In this document: positions 12,296-25,211 of the stretch, piece after piece
Numbering within the stretch: the first letter of the stretch is position 1
Layout of the letters: every line of letters starts with the position of its first letter
Virus record (IMG/VR): IMGVR_UViG_3300025769_000770
Span: 1 to 25,264 of that record
Strand: one strand, 5' to 3'
From: a virus
DNA: 25,264 nt
The notes under the pieces: model-generated
The model's database searches: none
The model's input: only the letters and a program-made list of their open reading frames with translations
What the model was told of the DNA's origin: nothing
Position numbers and translations under genes: made by a program

Positions 12296-13038
12296 AAGAA
12301 GTGAAGACAGGGCGGAGGAACGAGATACAACCCATAGAATGGCAACCTTACCGAGGCGAGACCATAATCCTCAACACCATCATCCGGAAAGGTCAAAGGA
12401 TACAAGAGACGGCATTCTACGAGGACAAGGTCAAGGCTGTGCCTCGTGGCAATGCCTACTGCATAGGAAATGGCCCGTCACGGAAAGGTTTCGACCTAGA
12501 CAAACTTAAACCCACGGGCCAGACATATGGTTGCAACGCACTGTACAGGGATTTCATGCCAGACTTCATATTCAGCGTGGACACAAAGATGACCGTCAAA
12601 ATGTGTGAGGACGAGGTTGGATTGACAACCATACACTACGCACCATCGTTGGAGGTGAACAGGAAGCAGAACAGAGGCATGCTACATCTAATACCACACA
12701 ACCCACACTGGATCTCAGGCAATGCCGCGTTCTGGACAGCGGGTGTTCATGGACACAAGAACATCTATCTCATAGGTTACGACTTCAGAGAATACGGCAA
12801 GGGACAACTCAACAATATCTACCAAGACACAGAATGCTATGGTGAGAGACACGGAGGAGACATATTCGAGGGTTGGTTAGGGACCTTTAGAAAGATGTTG
12901 AAAATGAGGCCTTACGTGAACTACACCATCGTTCACGACAACCCCCCGGATTTCCTAAATCATCTGCAGACAGGAGTGGACCTAGGCAACAGCAAGATTA
13001 TTAGTTACAGTGAGTTCAAAAAGGTTTTAACACCTTGA
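12292..13038 (+). CDS. DUF115/GT42-like protein (possible sialyltransferase-type enzyme)
   Basis: This 248-aa protein has a glycine-rich CIGNGPSRKGFDLDKLKP segment (57-74), followed by GCNALYRDFMPDFIFSVD. Later comes ISGNAAFWTAGVHGHKNIYLIGYDFREYG (141-169). The same order, GNGPSL then an Asn near a short helix, then SGxxxxxxAxxxGxxxIYLxGxDF, is what I recall for the Campylobacter Cst-II type GT42 sialyltransferases and the DUF115 family. It fits a glycan island. I chose the ATG at 12292 because it gives an ATGA overlap with copy D; an in-frame ATG 42 bases earlier would add 14 residues inside copy D. The stop overlaps the convergent SprT-like gene by 12 bases. The sugar donor is unknown. Confidence 0.6.
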   Translation: MKEVKTGRRNEIQPIEWQPYRGETIILNTIIRKGQRIQETAFYEDKVKAVPRGNAYCIGNGPSRKGFDLDKLKPTGQTYGCNALYRDFMPDFIFSVDTKMTVKMCEDEVGLTTIHYAPSLEVNRKQNRGMLHLIPHNPHWISGNAAFWTAGVHGHKNIYLIGYDFREYGKGQLNNIYQDTECYGERHGGDIFEGWLGTFRKMLKMRPYVNYTIVHDNPPDFLNHLQTGVDLGNSKIISYSEFKKVLTP

Positions 13039-13503
13039 TAGGCCTAAACCGGCAAGCCTAAATTTATTCTTCCAAGCAAAAAAGTTCTTATTATGATTGC
13101 TATAGGGATCCTTCAACCAAGTCATCTGATACAGGTGTACCATCTCGTGTGCTAGTGTTTCAACGAAATCCTTCCAAGTGGGAAATTTACAGTGTAGTTC
13201 TATGTAGAATTCAACATCAATGTGATAGGGTATGACCCTCTGGTCGAACTTGCCTTTTGGTGTTTTCCTGTTGTCCCAATTGGCCACGCATCTACCCCAG
13301 TCCTTGTGCAGTTTCTTGACACGCAACGGCACGGATGGTAATCTACCGTTGAACAACCCACGATTCAATGTCCTGAACCAATGATACAACTGCTCTTGTG
13401 TGGGCTTGAACCCTTTGGTGTTCTTGTATCTGGTAATTGTGTTTTCCAACTTAATTTTCAGTTGTTTTCTCACATTCACGGTTTTGTTTTTCGTTTTTTT
13501 CAT
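13027..13503 (-). CDS. SprT-like zinc metalloprotease
   Basis: This 158-aa protein has the zinc-protease motif HEMVH (119-123) inside ETLAHEMVHLYQM, with a third ligand probably in NHNKNFFAWKNKF. An upstream WGRCVANWDNRK segment (69-80) and an HIDVEFYIELH segment match the SprT-like fold. Related SprT/Spartan proteins bind DNA and can cleave DNA-protein crosslinks, and short SprT-like proteins are frequent in phage genomes. I take the ATG at 13503 as start; a TTG 18 bases upstream would add six residues. The N-terminus is rich in Lys (KKTKNKTVNVRKQLKIKLE), suggesting DNA contact. It runs against the island, and its 5' end borders the divergent sigma70 promoter. Confidence 0.85.
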   Translation of the reverse strand: MKKTKNKTVNVRKQLKIKLENTITRYKNTKGFKPTQEQLYHWFRTLNRGLFNGRLPSVPLRVKKLHKDWGRCVANWDNRKTPKGKFDQRVIPYHIDVEFYIELHCKFPTWKDFVETLAHEMVHLYQMTWLKDPYSNHNKNFFAWKNKFRLAGLGLSRC

Positions 13504-13505
13504 GG

Positions 13506-13533
13506 TTGACAGTATTACCAATTGTGCTATAAT
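13506..13533 (+). promoter_or_regulatory. Perfect-consensus sigma70 promoter for the replication operon
   Basis: TTGACA at 13506-13511 and TATAAT at 13528-13533 both match the sigma70 consensus exactly, with a 16-base spacer. The start of transcription would be near 13540, leaving a leader of about 28 bases before the ATG at 13568. The leader has a weak AGG Shine-Dalgarno at 13558-13560. It lies in the only gap between the SprT-like gene and the plus-strand operon. A host-polymerase promoter of this quality suits early transcription of replication genes. Confidence 0.8.
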
Positions 13534-14903: not shown

Positions 14904-16367
14904 ATGAGTAGTTGTAAACTAGTAATCAAAGACGAAGTGAATGTGAAGTTCGAGAACCTCAGTCTCGAGTGGAGGAAGAGACTATCCAACAAGTTCAAAT
15001 ACGAGATACCATACGCGAGGCATCTACCCGCGGTTAAACTGGGTAGGTGGGATGGCAAGGTCAGTTTCTTTGGTCTTGGAGGAACAACATACCTAAACCT
15101 CGTAGACCAGATACTGCCCATACTGGAGGATGGCGGGGTGTACGTGGATTTCGAGGATCACAGGGAACAGCACAACTTCGAGTTCAAGGCAGTAGACAAG
15201 GACTACCTAGCACACATTACATGGCCCCACAACCATCCATGTGCTGGACAACCAATACAACTCAGAGACTATCAGGTTGAGACCATAAACAAGTTCATCG
15301 AGAATCCACAGTGCATACAGGAGATAGCCACAGGAGCCGGTAAGACCATAATCACCGCGGCGTTGTGTCAACTGGTGGAACCCTACGGCAGGACACTGAC
15401 CATCGTACCCAACAAGAGTTTGGTCACACAGACCGAAGAAGACTTCCTGGCGTGTAATCTAGACGTTGGTGTGTACTATGGTGACAGAAAGGAACTGGGT
15501 AGATTCAACACCATAGCAACCTGGCAAAGTCTTAACGTACTAGAAAAAAAAGCAAAGGACGAACACACAACAGAATTCTTAGAAGCTATACAGGGCATTA
15601 ACACAATAATCATAGATGAGGTTCACATGGCCAAAGCCGACGTGTTGAAGAGATTGCTTACAGGACCATTCGCACACTGTGGCATACGTTGGGGACTGAC
15701 AGGCACCGTGCCAAAGGCAGACTACGAATTTATGGGTTTGAAATGTAGCATAGGTGAGGTGGCCAACAGGATACAGGCTAGTGAACTCCAAGATAAAGGA
15801 GTGTTGGCCAATTGCCACGTCAATGTACTACAGACACAGGATCACCCACAGTTCAAGACCTACGGTGAGGAGTTAAAATGGCTCACAACCGATGATACTA
15901 GAATGACGTGGGTGTCGCGTACAATCGAAAGCATAGCGACGTCGGGCAACACACTGATACTCGTAGACAGGATATCCGCCGGAGAGATCTTGGAGAAGAA
16001 AATCAAGGATGCGGTGTTCGTGTCCGGAGCAACCAAAAACACAGATAGGAAGGAACAATACGATGAAGTATCTACTGCTACAAATAAGGTTATCATTGCC
16101 ACATATGGAGTTGCCGCTGTTGGCATTAACATTCCTAGGATTTTCAATCTTGTTCTCATAGAACCTGGTAAGTCATTTGTTAGGGTGATACAGAGCATAG
16201 GACGTGGGATCAGGAAAGCGGAAGACAAGGACAGTGTGCAGATCTGGGACATTACCAGCAGTTGCAAGTTTGCAAAAAGACATCTAGGGGCAAGGAAAAA
16301 GTTTTACAAAGAGGCCAATTACCCGTATAATATAGAAAAGATAGATTATGAAAATCCTTACACTTGA
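14904..16367 (+). CDS. uvsW: UvsW-type superfamily 2 helicase
   Basis: T4 UvsW is an SF2 ATPase that unwinds R-loops and branched DNA, drives fork regression and controls origin use late in infection. This 487-aa protein carries the motifs in order: an N-terminal domain with RWDGKVSFFGLGG (48-60), Q-motif-like QLRDYQVETINKF (119-131), Walker A ATGAGKT (142-148), DEVH (238-241), LTGT (265-268), the AAVGINIPR segment (404-412) and motif VI QSIGRGIRK (430-438). The N-terminal WDGK segment is characteristic of UvsW. The last 20 bases overlap the next gene. It is the second gene of the promoter-13506 operon. Confidence 0.93.
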   Translation: MSSCKLVIKDEVNVKFENLSLEWRKRLSNKFKYEIPYARHLPAVKLGRWDGKVSFFGLGGTTYLNLVDQILPILEDGGVYVDFEDHREQHNFEFKAVDKDYLAHITWPHNHPCAGQPIQLRDYQVETINKFIENPQCIQEIATGAGKTIITAALCQLVEPYGRTLTIVPNKSLVTQTEEDFLACNLDVGVYYGDRKELGRFNTIATWQSLNVLEKKAKDEHTTEFLEAIQGINTIIIDEVHMAKADVLKRLLTGPFAHCGIRWGLTGTVPKADYEFMGLKCSIGEVANRIQASELQDKGVLANCHVNVLQTQDHPQFKTYGEELKWLTTDDTRMTWVSRTIESIATSGNTLILVDRISAGEILEKKIKDAVFVSGATKNTDRKEQYDEVSTATNKVIIATYGVAAVGINIPRIFNLVLIEPGKSFVRVIQSIGRGIRKAEDKDSVQIWDITSSCKFAKRHLGARKKFYKEANYPYNIEKIDYENPYT

Positions 16368-16851
16368 TGACAGGACCTACAAACTGGAAAAGATACCTGA
16401 ATGGGTAGATGAGAAATTGAGATTTGCGGTATTGGACAATTCTGACCCCAACAATCCAGACTTCTTCTACATACCTTTGATATTCCTAGAAAGTTTCAAC
16501 GCACCAGCGGCGGTGTTAGAAATAGGAGATCACAAGATCAAGATGCCACTGGACTGGAAAATGCTGATAGGAGAGGCGGGACAATCAGAGATGCATGTGC
16601 TACCAATAACCAGTCTCAATGACAGAGGATTTGATGCATTCACGTTCAATCCTTTATCAAGCACCAAACCAGAATTCATGCCCATAGATGTGGTCGACAT
16701 TTATACTGAAGTAAAATGGTACTTCCCAAAGATCAAGTCAGGACAGATGTTAGCGGTGCCACTGACTAACGGACGTAGACCTATGTGTGCCTATTTTGTT
16801 AAAGATATATCTCGACAGTGCGAGCAGGTAGACTATGGCTCAGTCTGGTAG
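16348..16851 (+). CDS. Hypothetical protein after uvsW
   Basis: This 167-aa protein has no motif I can name. It reads as a compact soluble alpha/beta protein, with several aromatic and proline residues (FFYIPLIFLESFNAP, WKMLIGEAGQSEMHVLPI). It starts with a short strand, MKILTLDDRTYKLEKI. It overlaps uvsW by 20 bases and the next gene by 17, a spacing shared by several junctions here, and so is part of one translationally linked operon. Context suggests a role around replication or recombination, but the sequence shows none. Confidence 0.78.
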   Translation: MKILTLDDRTYKLEKIPEWVDEKLRFAVLDNSDPNNPDFFYIPLIFLESFNAPAAVLEIGDHKIKMPLDWKMLIGEAGQSEMHVLPITSLNDRGFDAFTFNPLSSTKPEFMPIDVVDIYTEVKWYFPKIKSGQMLAVPLTNGRRPMCAYFVKDISRQCEQVDYGSVW

Positions 16852-17068
16852 ACGAACTATAACCATAGACGCACCTGTTTTAATAACCAGCAACAAGATC
16901 GCAGTGTGGATGGACGAGCATTGGATGAGAGATTTCTTTGATTGGTTAAGGAAAAATAAATTCAAGATTTCGGCTATGAATCACCAGCAAAAGAAAATAA
17001 AATTAACTTTCGTAGATGCCAAGGAGTGCACTATGTTTGGATTAAAATATGCCAGCAAAAAAAAGTAA
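16835..17068 (+). CDS. Small hypothetical protein
   Basis: This 77-aa protein is rich in Lys and aromatic residues, with a WMDEHWMRDFFDWLRKNKFKI segment that should form an amphipathic helix, followed by KIKLTFVDAKECTMF. It ends with a basic tail, ASKKK. It overlaps the upstream gene by 17 bases and gp62 by 20, so it is a real operon member by context. No family is recognised. A small protein directly before the clamp-loader subunit could be an interaction partner, which is inference. Confidence 0.65.
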   Translation: MAQSGRRTITIDAPVLITSNKIAVWMDEHWMRDFFDWLRKNKFKISAMNHQQKKIKLTFVDAKECTMFGLKYASKKK

Positions 17069-17507
17069 CACAAAGAAATTTTTTGATCTCAGGAACGGGT
17101 TGAAGGCCGTGGACTTCAGGAACAAAGACTACTATGACAGGATAGACGACAAAGAGAAATCTTTGTACAGCCCTTACATGTTGATGAGATATGTGTCCAG
17201 CTGTTCGTCAAAAGATCAATTCTACGTGGAACACTACGTGGAGATGGTGAACGAGTGCGTGAACAAACACTGTTTCACCCTGGGCAAACACAAGAAACTG
17301 TTATGGATACTGACCGCCATGTGTGGCGCATTACAACAGCAGTTTCATCCATGGATAAAACCCATGAAACGTGTGCCAAACAAATCGTTGAAGAAATTAC
17401 AGGAGATCTATCCCACTTGGAAAGAGACCGATCTCGAGACACTGGACAAAGTGATAACTGACAGGGAACTAGAGGAGCTGATAGAAGCACATGGCATCGA
17501 CAAATAA
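17049..17507 (+). CDS. 62: Clamp-loader small subunit, gp62-like
   Basis: T4 gp62 is the small subunit that with four gp44 subunits loads the gp45 sliding clamp. This 152-aa protein matches the short form of marine T4-like phages: after a basic N-terminus comes an EKSLYSPYMLMRYVSS segment (53-68), in the place of the YNPFMVNRSLSY-like motif. It then continues with VEHYVEMVNECVN, a KKLLWILTAMCG segment, and a KPMKRVPNKSLKKLQEIYP stretch that ends in helices with basic and acidic residues. It overlaps neighbours by 20 and 17 bases. gp44, gp45 and gp43 are not in this window. The call rests on motif likeness and operon context. Confidence 0.65.
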   Translation: MPAKKSNTKKFFDLRNGLKAVDFRNKDYYDRIDDKEKSLYSPYMLMRYVSSCSSKDQFYVEHYVEMVNECVNKHCFTLGKHKKLLWILTAMCGALQQQFHPWIKPMKRVPNKSLKKLQEIYPTWKETDLETLDKVITDRELEELIEAHGIDK

Positions 17508-18174
17508 ATGCACCTACTGTAGCAAGGAGTTTGCCAAGGAGAGGACTTTACAGGTACACCTATGCGAACCAAAGAGGAGATACCTACAGCGAGATGAGAA
17601 GTGGGTGGTCAACGCATTCATGGTGTTCCAGAGGTTCTACAAGATACACCAACACAACGCCAAGGACAGGACCTATGATGACTTCGTCAAGAGTCCCTAC
17701 TACAACGCTTTTGTGAAATTTGGTAGATACATCATGCACATCAACCCTTTGTATCCAGACAAGTACATAGACTTCGTGTTGAAATCAAAGATCAAACTAG
17801 ACCACTGGGCCAGGGATGATCTGTACGAGGAGTATCTGATCGAAACACTGAAGACGGAACCCGTGGAGGCCGCGCTTCAGCGTAGCATAGCCACAATGAT
17901 GGACTGGGCCACGGAACAACACGCACAGTGGTCCGACTACTTCAGATTGGTCAACACCAACAGGGCAGTGCAACACATACAGCAGGGCGCCATCAGTCCA
18001 TGGCTGTTGCTAGGTTGCGAAGCAGGCAAGAAAATGTTAAAATCATTCAACGACGAACAACTACAGATGATAGAAAGATTCATAAACCCAAGTTTTTGGC
18101 CCAGCAAGTTGAAGAGCTATCCGGCCGACCTCATGCTGGTCAAGGAAACAGCCAAGGAGGCCAAAATTGTCTAA
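17491..18174 (+). CDS. Zinc-finger-like hypothetical protein
   Basis: This 227-aa protein begins with a zinc-finger-like pattern, Cys7-X2-Cys10-X12-His23-X-Cys25, in CTYCSKEFAKERTLQVHLC. The spacing CxxC...HxC is not the classic C2H2 HxxxH, so zinc binding is plausible but unproved. The rest is an alpha-helical domain with many aromatic residues (WVVNAFMVFQRFYKIHQHN, MDWATEQHAQWSDYFRLV). I know no function. It sits between gp62 and the mini DnaE-like gene and overlaps gp62 by 17 bases. DNA binding through the finger would suit the operon. Confidence 0.7.
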   Translation: MASTNKCTYCSKEFAKERTLQVHLCEPKRRYLQRDEKWVVNAFMVFQRFYKIHQHNAKDRTYDDFVKSPYYNAFVKFGRYIMHINPLYPDKYIDFVLKSKIKLDHWARDDLYEEYLIETLKTEPVEAALQRSIATMMDWATEQHAQWSDYFRLVNTNRAVQHIQQGAISPWLLLGCEAGKKMLKSFNDEQLQMIERFINPSFWPSKLKSYPADLMLVKETAKEAKIV

Positions 18175-18400
18175 GATTGATCTAGAGATAGCGGACAGTT
18201 TGGATTTCGAAGACGGAGATTGTGCAGTGGTCATAAAAGAAGATGGATCGATCGGAAGGGTAATAATGCCGGACATAAACAGAAATGTTTTGGAATCGGA
18301 AGGATACAGGAAACTTTTAGACGTGTTGGAAGTCTTACAGCCAGGATCACGTGACAAAATGATACAACACGCCGAAAAGGGAAAAGGGAGTATGCACTGA
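18167..18400 (+). CDS. Small hypothetical protein with TTG start
   Basis: This 77-aa protein begins at TTG (18167), overlapping the previous stop by 8 bases, with no in-frame ATG near. The product starts SKIDLEIADSLDFEDGDCAVVIKEDGS and continues to GRVIMPDINRNVLESEGYRKLLDVLEVLQPGSR, a neat alpha/beta-like sequence. Its stop and the next start share one base (TGATG). The family is not recognised. Its fixed place directly before the mini DnaE-like gene hints at a linked role. Confidence 0.65.
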   Translation: MSKIDLEIADSLDFEDGDCAVVIKEDGSIGRVIMPDINRNVLESEGYRKLLDVLEVLQPGSRDKMIQHAEKGKGSMH

Positions 18401-18990
18401 TGCCTGATGTGGACATAGATTTCTTTGACAGAGACGGGGTGTTGAAACTTTTCAAGCATACGCCGGCATCGATAATCAAAGACGGCAAGACCGAGAAACA
18501 CAAGACGGGGGTATACTTCCATGCGGTGCCTGAACATCCTGTGACAGGAAACTCCTCGTTGGATTACAAGAAAGCCGAGAATCGAGGTTACTTCAAGATC
18601 GACATGCTGAATGTAAACATATACAAGGAAGTGAAATCAGAACAGGAACTTGTGGAACTCATGATACAGGAGCCCGACTGGGACATGCTAAAGGATCCAA
18701 AGACTGTGGAGAACCTGTTCCACCTTAACGGACACTTCAACATAGTTTCCAAACTAGAGCCAAAGAACATCGAACAACTGGCCGCCGTGTTGGCCATAAT
18801 ACGTCCCGCTAAGAGGCACTTGATGTACAAGGACTGGCAGGACATAATGAAGGAAGTGTGGACAAAGCCCACAGACGGATCCTACTTCTTCAAGAAATCA
18901 CACGCCATAGCCTACGCACAGGCAATTGTGGTACAGATGAATCTGATCACCAGAGCTAAATATAGTTTTGATGCTACATCAAAAAACTAA
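18400..18990 (+). CDS. Miniature DnaE-like protein (196 aa)
   Basis: The protein begins MPDVDIDF, the palm motif of bacterial replicative polymerase DnaE. Later segments follow the order of DnaE motifs: a DYKKAENRGYFKIDML stretch (55-70), where Asp68 aligns with the third catalytic Asp of DnaE; an LEPKNIEQLAAVLAIIRP stretch (119-136) like the LxPxxxxDLxALxALxRP of DnaE; and FFKKSHAIAYA (163-173) like its FNKSHAAAYA. All three carboxylates (Asp3, Asp5, Asp68) are present, yet the protein is less than a fifth of normal DnaE length (about 1,100 aa). PHP, fingers, beta-binding and OB regions are missing. It could be a reduced polymerase, a clamp or primer-related accessory, or a non-catalytic relic. 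Similar short proteins may occur in related marine phages. Confidence 0.7.
   Translation: MPDVDIDFFDRDGVLKLFKHTPASIIKDGKTEKHKTGVYFHAVPEHPVTGNSSLDYKKAENRGYFKIDMLNVNIYKEVKSEQELVELMIQEPDWDMLKDPKTVENLFHLNGHFNIVSKLEPKNIEQLAAVLAIIRPAKRHLMYKDWQDIMKEVWTKPTDGSYFFKKSHAIAYAQAIVVQMNLITRAKYSFDATSKN
18966..18984. repeat. Perfect 8-bp inverted repeat (hairpin) covering a start codon
   Basis: TTTTGATG (18966-18973) and CATCAAAA (18977-18984) are exact reverse complements separated by CTA. In RNA they could form a short A/U-rich hairpin at the end of the mini DnaE-like gene. The ATG of the 51-aa ORF (18971-18973) lies inside the left arm. There is no U tract after the stem on either strand, so it is a poor classical terminator. 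It may instead regulate that start codon or protect the mRNA end. Confidence 0.45.
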
Positions 18991-19126
18991 AAAAAAGACA
19001 CCCAAACATATTAGTAAAAAACATCGCAGTTCAATTCACTCCGAGCACAGATCATATCAGCCAAACAACACGTTGACCAAGTACGTGGAAAGAGTGAACG
19101 GTATAAACTGTACTGAAAAAAACTAA
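18971..19126 (+). CDS. Possible 51-aa basic protein
   Basis: An open frame from ATG at 18971 to TAA at 19124-19126 encodes 51 residues. It starts MLHQKTKKKTPKHISKKHRS and ends KYVERVNGINCTEKN, and is rich in Lys, His and Ser. It overlaps the mini DnaE-like gene by 20 bases, the same style of overlap seen elsewhere here, and touches the end of the convergent minus-strand gene. No Shine-Dalgarno is obvious, and its start lies in the hairpin. A strongly basic short protein could bind nucleic acid. It is not recognised and may be chance. Confidence 0.45.
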   Translation: MLHQKTKKKTPKHISKKHRSSIHSEHRSYQPNNTLTKYVERVNGINCTEKN

Positions 19127-19497
19127 ACGGGTTTACGGACCAACTGTATTGTTCTACGTTTGACACGTTTCTTGGATATGTCTAGTAAACGAACAGTGGG
19201 GCCTTCTTGGATTTCAACATCCTTTGCATTCAAAGTTACCAAAGTTGAACGGAAATATCGGAAGTCTCCTTTGAGAAAAATATTGATTGGTAACTTTCGA
19301 TTTGATTCGTGCCACCAAGTTTCTCCGCATTTGAGAAAATGTATCTTTTCTTGCTGTAGAATCAGTTTGCCATAATCATAGAAACTGATCACATTCGCAT
19401 CCTCGTTCTGGATTATGCCAACATATTCGAGATCACCCTTCCGGATCAGGCTTAGAAAGGGAAATTTATCCCTCAGGGTTTGAAAAATCTCGTTCAT
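19123..19497 (-). CDS. Hypothetical protein, minus strand
   Basis: This 124-aa protein has an LRKGDLEYVGIIQNEDANVISFYDYGKL-like beta-rich N-terminal half (my reading of residues 18-45), a GETWWHESNRKLPINIFLKGDFRYF segment and a basic end (ISKKRVKRRTIQLVRKPV). The paired tryptophans, Pro and basic tail suggest a small folded protein that may bind nucleic acid, though no domain is recognised. The ATG start is at 19497; its 5' end borders the late promoter for the virion-type gene, on the other strand. It is the only minus-strand gene between the two replication clusters. Confidence 0.75.
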   Translation of the reverse strand: MNEIFQTLRDKFPFLSLIRKGDLEYVGIIQNEDANVISFYDYGKLILQQEKIHFLKCGETWWHESNRKLPINIFLKGDFRYFRSTLVTLNAKDVEIQEGPTVRLLDISKKRVKRRTIQLVRKPV

Positions 19498-19529: not shown

Positions 19530-20333
19530 ATGCAAACAGTCTCAAGGTATTTACTGAATCAATTGGTAATAGCCTACATAAATGGTTATCACGGGAGGAA
19601 CTCCAAAGTGTACGATAGACGCCTTACATTACACAGGGGTGTGAACAATCCCATCACTTTCACGTTCAAGAACGAGGACCAAAAGGCCCAAGATATAACG
19701 GCCAAGACCTACGAGTTCAACATGATAGATACTGAAAGCAAGAAAGCGGTGCTGACAAAGACACTGACCATACTTGACGACGGATCGACTGTGAGCTCTA
19801 GAGGTGATGCGAGCTGTACGATAACTGAGGGCGATCTATTACCCCTAGATGCCAAATTCTACAATTTTTCCGTAAAAGAAGTCAAATCAGACGGAAGTAG
19901 GGAAGTCACATACGCCGACACAGGATATGCCGCGGCGGGAACCGTGGAGCTGTTAGATGGAGCATATCCGGAGTTCGTGGCAAGCACAGCAGTTACCAGT
20001 TTCACGTCAGCACAAGGACCATTAACATACACCTCGGGATCCATTGACGCAAGACCAGGCATAAACAACAACAAGGCCTTGCACACCATTGCCGTTTACA
20101 CCAAGAATTTTTCCGGGAGTATGAGGGTACAGGGAACAATGAGTTCAACACCAGGAGCCGGAGACTGGTTTGATATCACAATGGACGGCGAAGCAAGTGC
20201 TACCAATACGTTCACAAATTCCACAACTGTTACCAACTACAACTTCACAGGCGTATACCACAACATCAGATTTACATGGGGCAACGATTCAGGTAATACC
20301 GGCCTGATTGACAAAATACTCTACAGACAGTAA
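19530..20333 (+). CDS. Virion-type beta-rich protein (baseplate or tail-associated)
   Basis: This 267-aa protein is rich in Ser, Thr, Gly and Asn, with repeated beta-strand patterns, as in phage tail, fibre or baseplate proteins. The first part, DRRLTLHRGVNNPITFTFKNEDQKA and later ITEGDLLPLDAKFYNFSVKEV, resembles N-terminal beta-sandwich domains of baseplate proteins. The C-terminal part, with FSGSMRVQGTMSSTPGAGDWFDI and VYHNIRFTWGNDSGNTG, looks like a second beta-sandwich, possibly carbohydrate binding. Its exact late promoter supports a structural role, although it lies among replication genes. The precise part of the virion cannot be told. Confidence 0.7.
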   Translation: MQTVSRYLLNQLVIAYINGYHGRNSKVYDRRLTLHRGVNNPITFTFKNEDQKAQDITAKTYEFNMIDTESKKAVLTKTLTILDDGSTVSSRGDASCTITEGDLLPLDAKFYNFSVKEVKSDGSREVTYADTGYAAAGTVELLDGAYPEFVASTAVTSFTSAQGPLTYTSGSIDARPGINNNKALHTIAVYTKNFSGSMRVQGTMSSTPGAGDWFDITMDGEASATNTFTNSTTVTNYNFTGVYHNIRFTWGNDSGNTGLIDKILYRQ

Positions 20334-20343
20334 AATATAGTTT

Positions 20344-21357
20344 ATGAACCTGATCCAGAACACAATTCTGACTAGCCTACCTGCGAACAAGAAAAAGACA
20401 CCCAGTGGGTGGATCAGTTTCAACGCACCTTGTTGTGTGTACAATGGCGAGACAGCAGACAAGAAGAAACGTGGCGGCATTATGACCAGCGCTGATGGTA
20501 CTATAAGTTATCACTGTTTCAACTGCGGCTTCAAGACCAGTTACGTGATTGGTCGTAAACTGACTTACAAGATGAGGCAGTTCATGAGCTACATAGGAAT
20601 ACCCGAAGACACAATCAAGAAATTGGCCATAGAGGCCATGCGTGAAGAAGAAAGTGACATCAAGTACGAGAAGAAAAAATTTGTCACCTTCAAGAAGAAA
20701 TCACTGCCAAAGAACACACACAAACTGGACGTGTGGTTGGAGAAGTATGTGGCCAATGATTTAACCGAACAGCAATGGAGGAAGATCGACGGACTACTGA
20801 AATATATCGAGGGCAGAGGTATCGGCGCCGACTGGTATGACTTCATGTACTCGCCTGACAAGATGTGGGACATACATCAGAGACTGTTGATCCCATTTTA
20901 CTGGAAGGGAGAAGTGGTCGGATACACAGGTCGGGTGTTCGAGGAATCACGTGCCGTCAAGTACTACACAGACGTGTGGCCGGGTTACGTGTTCAACATG
21001 GACGCACAGGACTGGACGAGGAAGTTCGTGTTGGTCACCGAAGGACCGTTCGATGCCATAGCCGTTTCTGGTGTGAGCATCTTGGGATCAGAGGTAAATG
21101 AAACACAAAAAGAATTGATAGACGGCTTAGGAAGACAGGTGATCGTGGTGCCCGACAGGGATGCACCAGGACAGAAACTAGTGGACCAGGCCACCGAGTT
21201 TGGGTGGAGCGTGGCATTTCCAGAATGGGACAAAACGGTTGGCGACGTGGCGGATGCTGTGTTAAAATATGGTAGACTGTTTACTATTCAATCAATACTG
21301 AAGACCACGGAATCAAGTAAACTAAAAATAGATTTAAAGAGAAGGATGTATGGCTGA
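20344..21357 (+). CDS. 61: DNA primase gp61-like
   Basis: T4 gp61 makes RNA primers with the gp41 helicase. This 337-aa protein has an N-terminal zinc-ribbon-like region: a Cys pair at 30-31 and Cys58-X2-Cys61 in YHCFNCGFKTSY. The central part contains YIEGRGIGADWYDF and GYTGRVFE, as in DnaG-type primases. A TOPRIM core follows, VLVTEGPFDAIAV (229-241) with the acidic Glu233, then VIVVPDRDAPGQ (266-277) with Asp271 and Asp273. The stop overlaps the gp41 start by 8 bases, which suits the primosome pair. The zinc ligands are read from pattern only. Confidence 0.9.
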   Translation: MNLIQNTILTSLPANKKKTPSGWISFNAPCCVYNGETADKKKRGGIMTSADGTISYHCFNCGFKTSYVIGRKLTYKMRQFMSYIGIPEDTIKKLAIEAMREEESDIKYEKKKFVTFKKKSLPKNTHKLDVWLEKYVANDLTEQQWRKIDGLLKYIEGRGIGADWYDFMYSPDKMWDIHQRLLIPFYWKGEVVGYTGRVFEESRAVKYYTDVWPGYVFNMDAQDWTRKFVLVTEGPFDAIAVSGVSILGSEVNETQKELIDGLGRQVIVVPDRDAPGQKLVDQATEFGWSVAFPEWDKTVGDVADAVLKYGRLFTIQSILKTTESSKLKIDLKRRMYG

Positions 21358-22789
21358 ATACACATTTGATGTACAGAAACTTTATATAGAGATGCTACTA
21401 GCAGATGCGGAATCATTTGCTAGGGCACAGAACATATTCAAGCCCGAGTCGTTTGATCGTAAACTACAACCCATAGCCAAGTTCGTCAAGGACTACATGG
21501 ACGAGTACAAGGTCATGCCAGATGTGGAACAGGTCAATGCCAAGCACGACATCAAACTGAAGTCGGCAAAGGACCTGGATCCAAGCCATTTCAATTGGTT
21601 GCTGGACGAGTTCGAGACATTCTCGAGACACAAGGCACTGGAACAAGCGATACTACAATCCGCAGACCTGTTGGAGAAGGGCGACTACGCTCCCGTCGAG
21701 GACATGGTCAAGGAAGCGGTCAACGTGGGACTGACCAGAGACCTTGGCACAGACTACTTTGAGGATCCCAAGGGAAGACTTGAGGCCCTCAAGGACAACA
21801 ACGGACAGATCAGCACTGGCTGGCAGAACCTAGACAAGAAACTGTTTGGCGGTTTCAACCGCGGAGAACTGAACATCTTTGCTGGTGGATCAGGCGCAGG
21901 AAAGAGTTTGTTCCTACAGAATCTTGCGGTGAACTGGGCACAGGCTGGTCTGAACGTTTGTTACATATCATTCGAGTTGAGTGAACAACTGACAGCGATG
22001 AGACTGGACGCAATGATGACCAACATTCCGACCAAACGGGTTTTTCCAGAGATAGACAACGTGGAGATGAAGGTCAAGATGTTGGCCAAGAAGTCTGGAC
22101 TGCTACAGATCAAATACCTGCCAAGTGGTAGCAACGTGCTGGACGTAAGGACGTATCTCAAGGAGCTGGAGCTCAAATCAAAGAAGAAGATAGACTGTAT
22201 CTTGATCGACTACCTGGATCTCATGATGCCCAAGAGCAAGAAGATATCCCCAGCGGACTTATTCATCAAGGACAAGTACGTGTCTGAGGAACTAAGGAAC
22301 TTGGTCGTGGAGAAACAGTGTGTGTTGGCCACAGCATCACAGTTGAACAGGGCATCTGTTGAGGAGATAGAGTTCGATCACAGCCACATATCAGGCGGAC
22401 TGTCCAAGATACAGACAGCAGACAACGTGATAGGTATATTCACATCGAGGGCAATGAAGGAACGTGGTAGGTATCAGATACAGTTCATGAAGACCAGATC
22501 CAGTTCGGGAGTGGGACAGAAGGTTGATCTGGAGTTTGATGTGGACAGTCTAAGGATAAGAGACCTAGCGGATGATCCGGAATACAAACAGTTTGACAAG
22601 CAGAGGAGCACCATATACGATAACCTCAAGAAGACATCTAAGGTAACAGGCGATGGAACACCCAAAGATGCCAGAGACGATGTGCCAGACCCCACCAAAG
22701 GCGACACGATAGGCAAAGTCAAGGCCACAGTGGAAGGCGGCAAACTGAGACAACTGCTCAACGAGTTACACTCAGATGAAGAACAGTAA
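21350..22789 (+). CDS. 41: Replicative helicase gp41-like (DnaB family)
   Basis: gp41 is the hexameric 5'-to-3' replicative helicase that unwinds the fork and works with gp61. The 479-aa protein has an N-terminal helical domain (1-140), then STGWQNLDKKLFGGFNRGELNIFAG, Walker A GGSGAGKS (179-186), YISFELSEQ (205-213), Walker B IDCILIDYLDLM (281-292), an ASQLNR segment and an HISGGLSKIQTADNVIGIF segment, as in RecA-fold DnaB proteins. The C-terminal tail is Lys/Asp-rich and flexible. It follows gp61 with an 8-base overlap and overlaps nth by 14 bases. Confidence 0.93.
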   Translation: MAEYTFDVQKLYIEMLLADAESFARAQNIFKPESFDRKLQPIAKFVKDYMDEYKVMPDVEQVNAKHDIKLKSAKDLDPSHFNWLLDEFETFSRHKALEQAILQSADLLEKGDYAPVEDMVKEAVNVGLTRDLGTDYFEDPKGRLEALKDNNGQISTGWQNLDKKLFGGFNRGELNIFAGGSGAGKSLFLQNLAVNWAQAGLNVCYISFELSEQLTAMRLDAMMTNIPTKRVFPEIDNVEMKVKMLAKKSGLLQIKYLPSGSNVLDVRTYLKELELKSKKKIDCILIDYLDLMMPKSKKISPADLFIKDKYVSEELRNLVVEKQCVLATASQLNRASVEEIEFDHSHISGGLSKIQTADNVIGIFTSRAMKERGRYQIQFMKTRSSSGVGQKVDLEFDVDSLRIRDLADDPEYKQFDKQRSTIYDNLKKTSKVTGDGTPKDARDDVPDPTKGDTIGKVKATVEGGKLRQLLNELHSDEEQ

Positions 22790-23459
22790 CGACATAGAAC
22801 ACATCTATGAGAAGTTGAGTGCTCTATATCCAAACTACTCAAACAAGAAACCCAAGGCAAAGATACACTCAAAAGCATACACCAGTCTCGTAGGCGTGAT
22901 GCTGTCAGCACAGAGTCAGGACAAGAGAACCGCGGTGGCTTGTAGGCAACTATTCGCACTGGCAGACACACCCGAGGACATGTTGAAACTCACACAGGAA
23001 GAGATCATAGAGGCCATCCGACCCGCAGGACTGTTCAACGCCAAGTCAAAGAACATACTAGCGACCAGCAAGATGCTTTTGGATAAGTTTGACGGACGTG
23101 TGCCCAGCACCCAGAAAGAACTGATGACACTACCCGGTGTGGGTCGTAAGAGCTCTGACATCGTTATGAGGTTCGTTTTTGGGGAACCACACATAGCGGT
23201 GGACACACACGTGTTCAGGATGTTGTGGAGACTGGGCTGGGCGGATTCATTAGACGAGGGCAAGGCCTCCATAACAGTCAACAACACCACACCCGGCAAG
23301 TACAAGTACGGTGCCCACATGTGGTTAATAACACACGCCAAGTTGGTGTGTAGATCTAGATCACCGTTGTGTGATCAATGTGTGATCAGAGCCGTGTGTG
23401 ACCAGAGGAACATAGACACTCCAAAGAATCGACTGCGTCAAAAAATCGCCACTTCATAA
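22776..23459 (+). CDS. nth: Endonuclease III-like DNA glycosylase/AP lyase
   Basis: Endonuclease III removes oxidised pyrimidines and cleaves at abasic sites. This 227-aa protein has the helix-hairpin-helix LPGVGRKSSDIV (119-130) with the catalytic Lys125, and VDTHV (142-146) with catalytic Asp143. The iron-sulphur cluster spacing Cys192-X6-Cys199-X2-Cys202-X5-Cys208 is exactly that of E. coli Nth. An earlier LVGVMLSAQSQDK segment (38-50) also matches. The length is close to the E. coli enzyme's. It overlaps gp41 by 14 bases, so it is made with the primosome. All key residues are present. Confidence 0.95.
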   Translation: MKNSNDIEHIYEKLSALYPNYSNKKPKAKIHSKAYTSLVGVMLSAQSQDKRTAVACRQLFALADTPEDMLKLTQEEIIEAIRPAGLFNAKSKNILATSKMLLDKFDGRVPSTQKELMTLPGVGRKSSDIVMRFVFGEPHIAVDTHVFRMLWRLGWADSLDEGKASITVNNTTPGKYKYGAHMWLITHAKLVCRSRSPLCDQCVIRAVCDQRNIDTPKNRLRQKIATS

Positions 23460-23467
23460 TCTGCGCA

Positions 23468-23475
23468 GATAAATA
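23468..23475 (+). promoter_or_regulatory. Possible weak late promoter GATAAATA
   Basis: GATAAATA differs from the T4 late -10 box TATAAATA at one position. It lies in the 60-base gap between nth and the DnaE-like gene, 44 bases before the ATG. A promoter here would let the polymerase gene be expressed apart from the operon. The gap otherwise shows nothing I can name. One mismatch in a very conserved box keeps this uncertain. Confidence 0.25.
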
Positions 23476-23519
23476 TTCCTGCTCAAGGCAATAACAGGCA
23501 AACTTAAAAGCATAGGCAA

Positions 23520-25211
23520 ATGAAAGACAAGGAACTGAACGACATAACAAGGCTGTACGATAGATTCATCAGGCAATGTCCAGGCACAGAAGAATACACG
23601 CATAGGCTAGCCGAGGAGACTCGCATCATCCTTCAACTACGTTTCGTAGACTACTTCATACAAATATGTGACATCATAGCAATGACCCGAGACATACCAC
23701 ACATGACACGTGGTAGCGCTGGATCGTCATTGGTCTGTTACCTATTGGGCATAACGGATGTGGACCCAGTGGAGTGGGACATACCAGTGGCTAGATTCCT
23801 CAACCCCAATCGAGACGACCTTCCCGATGTGGACATAGATTTTCCCCACCACAAACAGGAAGAGGTCATGAAGAGGATCTTCAAGAAGTGGCCGGGACGC
23901 AGTGCTAGGATATCCAACTACGTGCTCTACAAGGATAAGTCAGCGCGACGTGAAGCGGCCAAGCGACTTGGAGTCAAGGGCAACCTACCCCGCAGGTTCA
24001 CATACGATTCGTTAGGCATCGACACAAAGGAGGCCAAACGTATCGAAAACAAACTGAAAGGCAAGAAGAGATGCATATCAAAACACTGCGGAGGAATACT
24101 GATGTTTCAAAGACAACTACCAAAAAGCCTGTTCACGGCGGAGAACCAAATACTGCTAGACAAGAACGAAGTAGAGGACCTAGAACACCTGAAGGTGGAT
24201 ATTTTAGCCAATCGTGGTTTGTCACAACTCATAGAGATAGACCCCACGCGGAAACTGACGGACTATCCCGAAGAGGATTCCGCTACTTCGGAACTTTTGT
24301 GCAGGGGGGACGTGCTGGGAGTGACACAGGCAGAGAGTCCGGCCATGCGGAGACTGTTCAGGGCGATAAAACCAAAGAGTGTTAGGGACTGTGTGTTCGG
24401 GACGGCACTGATAAGGCCAGTGGCAGTGTCCGGACGCAGGAAGGCGACCATGTTCCATGACTGGAGCAAGGAACGTATGAGTGACAGCATAGTGTACGAG
24501 GATGATGCCATAGATAGGATCGCAGAAGTGCTGGGCATAGACAAGTACGAAGCGGACATGTACAGACGTGCATTCGCAAAGAAGAACGAAGAAAGGATCA
24601 TGGAGTTTATATCGAGACTCGGTGACCATCCACGCAAGGACGAGATCATAACAATGCTACAGTCGTTATCTGGGTTTGGATTGTGCAGGGCACACGCTGT
24701 GAACCTGGGCAGACTGATATGGGCACTAGCATACCAAAAAGCACACAACAAAGAAAAATTCTGGCAGTCTTGCTTGAAGCACTGCCAAGGATCATACAAG
24801 CGTTGGGTTTACAGGACTGAGGCAAAGCGTGTGGGCATAGAAGTTGTCACACCTAGCAAGTCAGACAAGTGGGACACACCGGAATTCCAATACAGGAAGT
24901 ACGGTTGGTGGAGCCAGGAAGATTTCATGCCAGGAATGTATGTCAGAGAGTTGTACTTGGACAAGGTCGAATTCGCAGGTATGATAGCCAATGGCAGAGT
25001 ATTCAGGGGGGACAAGGGAAGATACGTGACATTCCTCACGTTGGGTGTGGGTAACGGACAATACATCGATGTCACTATAAAACGAGCGTTTGCGTATAGC
25101 GATCATGATGTCGTTTGGGGACAGGGAACAATAAGACATTCTAACAATTCTGATTTTGTGGAATGCTTTGACTCAAAAGGATTCAGATTAGAGAAATATA
25201 TTTCTAATTGA
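23520..25211 (+). CDS. DnaE-type DNA polymerase core without PHP domain
   Basis: This 563-aa protein matches bacterial DNA polymerase III alpha from about one third in. Visible are TRGSAGSSLVCYLLGITDVDP (63-83), like GRGSGAGSLVAY; ARFLNPNRDDLPDVDIDF (91-108), holding catalytic Asp103 and Asp105; HLKVDILANRGLSQL (223-237), with the third Asp227; GDVLGVTQAESPAMRRLF (263-280); and SGFGLCRAHAVNLGRL (384-399), like the NKSHAAAY region. A later EFAGMIANGRVF segment (484-495) resembles the OB domain. The PHP domain is absent, so the protein is about half normal size. It is a candidate polymerase that may work with a clamp. A relic or repair role is also possible. Confidence 0.85.
   Translation: MKDKELNDITRLYDRFIRQCPGTEEYTHRLAEETRIILQLRFVDYFIQICDIIAMTRDIPHMTRGSAGSSLVCYLLGITDVDPVEWDIPVARFLNPNRDDLPDVDIDFPHHKQEEVMKRIFKKWPGRSARISNYVLYKDKSARREAAKRLGVKGNLPRRFTYDSLGIDTKEAKRIENKLKGKKRCISKHCGGILMFQRQLPKSLFTAENQILLDKNEVEDLEHLKVDILANRGLSQLIEIDPTRKLTDYPEEDSATSELLCRGDVLGVTQAESPAMRRLFRAIKPKSVRDCVFGTALIRPVAVSGRRKATMFHDWSKERMSDSIVYEDDAIDRIAEVLGIDKYEADMYRRAFAKKNEERIMEFISRLGDHPRKDEIITMLQSLSGFGLCRAHAVNLGRLIWALAYQKAHNKEKFWQSCLKHCQGSYKRWVYRTEAKRVGIEVVTPSKSDKWDTPEFQYRKYGWWSQEDFMPGMYVRELYLDKVEFAGMIANGRVFRGDKGRYVTFLTLGVGNGQYIDVTIKRAFAYSDHDVVWGQGTIRHSNNSDFVECFDSKGFRLEKYISN

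Follow-up and report, generated by a model that had tools for sequence, protein, structure and literature searches.

A split, minimal Pol III alpha has been described, as a prediction, for the group 2.2 jumbo phages (Iyer et al. 2021, PMC7824862), and the CBB paper had earlier noted a 172-aa truncated alpha (PMC5259590). We read the two halves of the 2021 description as phrog_11127 (N-half) and phrog_11778 (C-half). An experimental test of the split enzyme was not found in the literature searched, outside which most subscription journals lie.

Here, we analyzed a 25,264-nt stretch of DNA from an uncultured phage (the window), in which an ORF of 196 aa (18400 to 18990, + strand) encodes a protein of the C-half family. 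The protein shares with the split Pol III alpha of 2021 its family, split point, conserved residues and phages, and given that description it is not unexplained, as a sequence-only reading of the window had thought it might be. The window differs in being a fragment of an uncultured phage, in having kin in which neither an N-half nor a family B polymerase was seen, and in that part of these kin add a second, unsplit mini-DnaE. New here are these kin contigs without N-half or family B polymerase, some of them with a complete PHP-less DnaE and none known to be complete.

Like E. coli Pol III alpha, the C-half has the motif order, the catalytic aspartates and the fold of the C-terminal palm and fingers. 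Unlike it, the C-half lacks the PHP domain and the GRGS segment and stops after the fingers, so that the full-DnaE combination of PHP domain and GRGS segment in one chain is absent (ORF, Pfam), and it measures 196 residues against 1160 (5fku). It also resembles a 563-aa mini-DnaE encoded in the window, and the relative of that protein in LR756508.1, in having a C-family palm and fingers and no PHP domain, but the mini-DnaE carries both an RGSAGSS motif and the catalytic triad in one chain, and its profile similarity to the C-half is weak (hhalign probability 77.7%).

Conservation and fold of the C-half

The ORF starts with ATG and the protein reads MPDVDIDF...GYFKIDML...LEPKNIEQLAAVLAIIRP...YFFKKSHAIAYA. 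Its length and the succession of its four DnaE motif blocks are those that the sequence-only reading had given. It belongs to phrog_11778, 'DNA polymerase' (PHROGs, E 2.8e-67, residues 3-187). Conservation in related phages, also claimed before, was confirmed: tblastn found relatives in 63 of 50,697 GenBank phage records, each with at least 80% query coverage, and at least 569 stretches in IMG/VR encode one. The 60 listed of the 63 GenBank matches show 35-55% identity, in genomes mostly of 280-490 kb, and many C-half relatives are labeled merely 'hypothetical protein' or 'putative membrane protein' in GenBank. The family is under purifying selection, with pN of 0.04-0.34 against pS of 0.62-0.98 in 15 comparisons, synonymous sites being near saturation. 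One homologue of 138 aa (L371, 941-1384) spans query residues 1-184 and thus has an internal deletion.

In bacterial and archaeal genomes (genome_contigs), two C-half loci were confirmed among the matches listed, from at least 592 pattern matches. Both (L454 and L455) sit in contigs filed under archaeal MAGs and are probably mis-binned phage DNA; a cellular origin of the C-half was rejected on this basis.

The three aspartates previously picked out as catalytic all lie where they had been placed. D3 and D5, the metal-binding aspartates of PDVDIDF (codons D3-V4-D5, 18406 to 18414, + strand as for all residues below), were present in all 143 rows covering them, and D7 was as invariant (143/143). 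K66 and the third catalytic aspartate D68 (K66-I67-D68, 18595 to 18603) were found in 146 of 146 rows, as were R135, P136 and K138 of IIRPAK (R135-P136-A137-K138, 18802 to 18813) and H168 of the fingers motif KKSHAIAYA (residues 165-173, 18892 to 18918). H34 (18499 to 18501), which aligns by hhalign with the HCGG histidine of the 563-aa DnaE, was likewise invariant (146/146).

The 146-row alignment omits two sequences shorter than 150 aa, L371 and the 85-aa L372, and presumably comprises 145 distinct sequences, the window sequence being contained twice. Because of this double entry, and because many rows closely resemble the window, the fairer count is that of 51 representatives below 85% identity, in which D3, D5 and D7 were kept in 49/49 and K66, D68, R135, P136, K138 and H168 in 51/51. 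The invariance extends to C-halves that share as little as 35% identity with the window. Orthologues that have lost the aspartates, which would have spoken against the sequence-only reading, did not appear in any covering row.

The structure model of the C-half (41 sequences) reached a pLDDT of 90.9 and a pTM of 0.83. In VIA-align, its 14 best rows were Pol III alpha or PolC (Z 6.0-9.0), followed by a row at Z 3.5; two of the 14, 9qrn and 9qpc, are titled just 'DNA polymerase', and we infer that they are PolC. Against residues 401-793 of E. coli alpha, whose catalytic residues we take to be D401, D403 and D555, the model aligned over 193 residues (Z 9.0, rmsd 4.7), and against 2hpi 461-850 with Z 8.5. 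Foldseek was weaker (best E 1.4e-3), its 13 best rows being of the Pol III alpha/PolC family. When the C-half profile was compared with PDB sequences, Pol III alpha chains filled the first 9 rows (best E 3.2e-4). A single-sequence search of the PDB with the 196-aa protein gave no polymerase, chance matches to triosephosphate isomerase alone, and the Pfam finger domain scored 15.7 bits against a cut-off of 22, beside one unrelated weak match. Therefore, the link of the C-half to solved DnaE is visible by profiles and structure only.

The fold, the PDB profile search and the phrog_11778 match agree, far beyond what chance would give, on the DnaE ancestry that had been proposed from the motifs, and the model resembles Pol III alpha/PolC rather than a fold unrelated to the DnaE palm. 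The accompanying statement that little else than the triad is kept was too strong: since E. coli alpha can be aligned with 193 of the model's 196 residues, a compressed core of C-terminal palm and fingers is kept, with the chain starting at the metal motif.

A separate N-half in relatives

In DnaE, the segment ahead of the metal motif holds GRGS, which contacts the triphosphate; in pol beta-type nucleotidyltransferases, a glycine-serine phosphate-binding motif stands upstream of DxD in the same chain. The GRGS-bearing palm segment is absent from the 196-aa chain, in which M1 alone precedes PDVDIDF. In Atu_ph07, the N-half is a separate 177-aa protein (phrog_11127, E 3.6e-71) that ends in ...DLDFSEFLE and is encoded 182 kb from the C-half of the same phage. 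Sharanji, a phage listed with E. coli K-12 MG1655 as host, likewise has both a C-half and an N-half.

An N-half profile search, which took in 13 of the 63 GenBank C-half records, found a separate N-half gene in all 13, at 11-224 kb from the C-half by subtraction of coordinates. Additionally, the 60 N-half records listed include 57 of the 60 listed for the C-half. The other three are PP728206 (109 kb), OQ508956 and OQ508957, and the profile recovered the N-half of OQ508956 although it is outside the N-half list. With the window protein as query, a C-half was found in 11 of 31 N-half contigs; 4 of the 11 N-half contigs of at least 190 kb gave no match to this single-sequence query, which distant C-halves may escape.

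The N-half model (mean pLDDT 74.7) is good for residues 67-177 only. All 11 rows that it matched are Pol III alpha, the best being M. tuberculosis 303-413 (Z 12.4), and E. coli alpha 270-393 was matched with Z 11.4. As the N-half corresponds to E. coli 270-393 and the C-half to 401-793, the two proteins together cover the palm end to end, and the cut falls between 393 and 401. What the window encodes is a conserved catalytic half-polymerase, known in kind, whose presumed partner is known in relatives. Taken together, these results suggest that the 196-aa protein probably belongs to a split minimal Pol III alpha of the C-family, as its C-terminal half that binds the metals, with the N-half being a separate protein in relatives.

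We propose that the N-half and C-half chains assemble in trans, where the N-half would grip the triphosphate and the C-half would bind the metals and the template. The assembled halves may serve as a small auxiliary polymerase beside the T4-type replisome (gp32, UvsX/Y/W, gp41 and gp61). For the phage of the window itself, our assumption is that the N-half gene sits beyond the ends of the fragment, or that the N-half was replaced.

The window yielded no separate N-half, and the mini-DnaE gene was the only match there. The 49 kin contigs, of which none is known to be complete, did not yield one either, the mini-DnaE gene being matched in 20 of them; G015, the 50th record of this search and its positive control, was detected. 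Among three large contigs, G011 (91 kb, one of the 49), G140 (86 kb) and G139 (183 kb), a 150-sequence profile found no N-half and matched mini-DnaE genes only, with the next best match at E 0.65, and all three carry a complete PHP-less DnaE. As a control, the N-half profile without near copies recovered 13/13 GenBank N-halves at E 2.1e-17 or better, plus that of G015. The copies of Atu_ph07 and G015 had been removed from this profile, and for the other 12 the nearest training sequence was 33-54% identical. Given the distances between the halves in the GenBank relatives, a 91-kb contig is too short to exclude an N-half.

Each of the 11 GenBank records searched for a family B polymerase has one, and 10 of the 11 also have a C-half; the profile recovered 6/6 in a leave-one-out control. 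No such polymerase was found in the window, in the 21 kin contigs searched, all fragments, or in G139, G140 and G011 (best E 1.6). In G139, PHROGs scans of 30 of the 57 ORFs of at least 330 aa and Pfam scans of 10 stretches, of which 7 were also in the PHROGs set, named no other polymerase. G139 carries genes for a terminase, tail sheath, tail tube and ribonucleotide reductase; terminal repeats were not found in it. Its tail sheath protein is long, at 1131 aa (L542, 13878-17270, - strand).

The identity to the window, for the DnaE and the C-half respectively, is 95% and 90% in G011, 71% and 54% in G140, and 64% and 47% in G139. Because the C-half of G139 is less like the window's than that of Atu_ph07 is (55%), G139 speaks for the mini-DnaE-bearing phages more than for the window.

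Gene neighborhood of the C-half

The upstream end of the gene block is a UvsW-type helicase (14904 to 16367; + strand here and below unless noted), and the 25 best listed of its 3,044 matches are in the same large phages as those of the C-half. It is followed by phrog_11279 (16348 to 16851), which is kept in close relatives, a 77-aa ORF, a phrog_11758-like gene (17049 to 17507), kept in most close relatives compared, and phrog_11058 (17491 to 18174), in which Pfam gives a weak, sub-threshold C2H2-like zinc finger. A further 77-aa ORF (18167 to 18400) overlaps the start of the C-half by one base (TGATG). Behind the C-half lie a 124-aa gene on the - strand (19123 to 19497), a 267-aa gene (19530 to 20333), a gp61-like DNA primase (20344 to 21357) and a gp41/DnaB-like replicative helicase (21350 to 22789). 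The intervening small genes are mostly the same in close IMG/VR relatives, and the three PHROG genes between UvsW and the C-half (16348 to 18174) are possible partners. Outside this block, 13027-13521 (- strand) encodes a SprT-like metallopeptidase (Pfam E 6.4e-8).

The order of UvsW, C-half, primase region and gp41-type helicase is kept in 10 of 13 GenBank relatives (RaK2, PBECO4, BF, XaC1, PHA46, Atu_ph07, Phosso, PA5oct, SCTP-2 and a Vibrio phage). In XacN1 and RAS14, no primase or helicase label was found within 3 kb downstream of the C-half, and in Slicko01, UvsW was not seen within the stretch read. A minus-strand gene of about 108-170 aa, matched by place and size, follows the C-half in all 13, with one extra gene between them in XacN1 and RAS14. 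The place of the 267-aa gene, matched by place, holds an annotated (virion) structural protein in 8 of 13.

Behind the helicase, an endonuclease III-like HhH-GPD protein (22776 to 23459) and the PHP-less mini-DnaE (23520 to 25211) make up a variable module (22776-25211), and several close relatives have other genes there.

The mini-DnaE and possible alternative roles of the C-half

The RGSAGSS, DxD, third Asp, RP and His of the mini-DnaE are conserved in 67-69 of the 69 rows aligned. Of 24 C-half loci whose downstream sequence extends for 6.5 kb or more, 19 lack the mini-DnaE in the sequence available, including loci whose C-halves are 95-97% identical to the window's; it is therefore no obligate partner of the C-half, and this candidate was ruled out. 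It occurs without a C-half in LR756508.1 (W03, 484 kb) and G138 (118 kb). We compared 28 core columns of the C-half, defined from the C-halves of N-half-bearing phages, and found them kept in 826/832 cells with a mini-DnaE nearby (the 30-row set probably holds the window sequence twice) and in 364/364 without one. One constraint therefore applies to the C-half in every setting, which points to the same job with an N-half still to be found, or to replacement of the N-half in part of these phages.

From these kin contigs, a scenario can be drawn that we hold to be rather unlikely: in some uncultured phages, the T4-type replisome would have lost its family B polymerase and N-half and would run on the unsplit, PHP-less mini-DnaE, with the C-half persisting under unchanged constraint as a trans partner of the mini-DnaE or of another protein. 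Another alternative, which we consider unlikely, is that the C-half of the mini-DnaE phages has lost its N-half and works with the 563-aa mini-DnaE, either receiving GRGS in trans or acting as a subunit. G139 fits such a pairing, with its C-half and mini-DnaE 3.6 kb apart and neither an N-half nor a family B polymerase found, but G139 is distant from the window in both proteins. Of 34 mini-DnaE loci with 6.5 kb or more of upstream sequence, 33 have a C-half there, yet the reverse fails in most C-half loci, and the mini-DnaE, with motifs complete by themselves, also occurs where no C-half does. Further, the 83 distinct N-half-bearing records, which include many fragments, gave no strong mini-DnaE match; in one search the weak matches (best E 4.4e-6) fell in N-half-sized ORFs, and a second search, which had no positive control, gave none at 1e-10. 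This non-co-occurrence may reflect lineage rather than function, and the C-half core is kept alike with and without the mini-DnaE.

A non-catalytic accessory protein or pseudo-polymerase, in which the fold is used for binding, would suit a family with no known activity and such uninformative labels. Loss of some catalytic residues would then be expected, but they are invariant over the whole identity range, and we regard this reading as very unlikely. A standalone minimal nucleotidyltransferase is highly improbable, even though all catalytic aspartates, K66, R135 and the H168 of KKSHA are retained, as the chain has no GRGS segment and a co-occurring separate protein in relatives carries it; for the same reason, the pared-down, self-sufficient enzyme of the sequence-only reading is unlikely, and the protein is probably not a shrunken polymerase working alone.

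If the split-polymerase reading is true, a palm divided between the segment for the triphosphate and the segment for the metals, with the two genes as much as hundreds of kb apart, would be an unusual enzyme design. Such a split palm would offer a natural way to ask what a minimal C-family polymerase is, and the abundant, strongly conserved C-half family offers cases on which the pairing of N-half and C-half could be put to the test.
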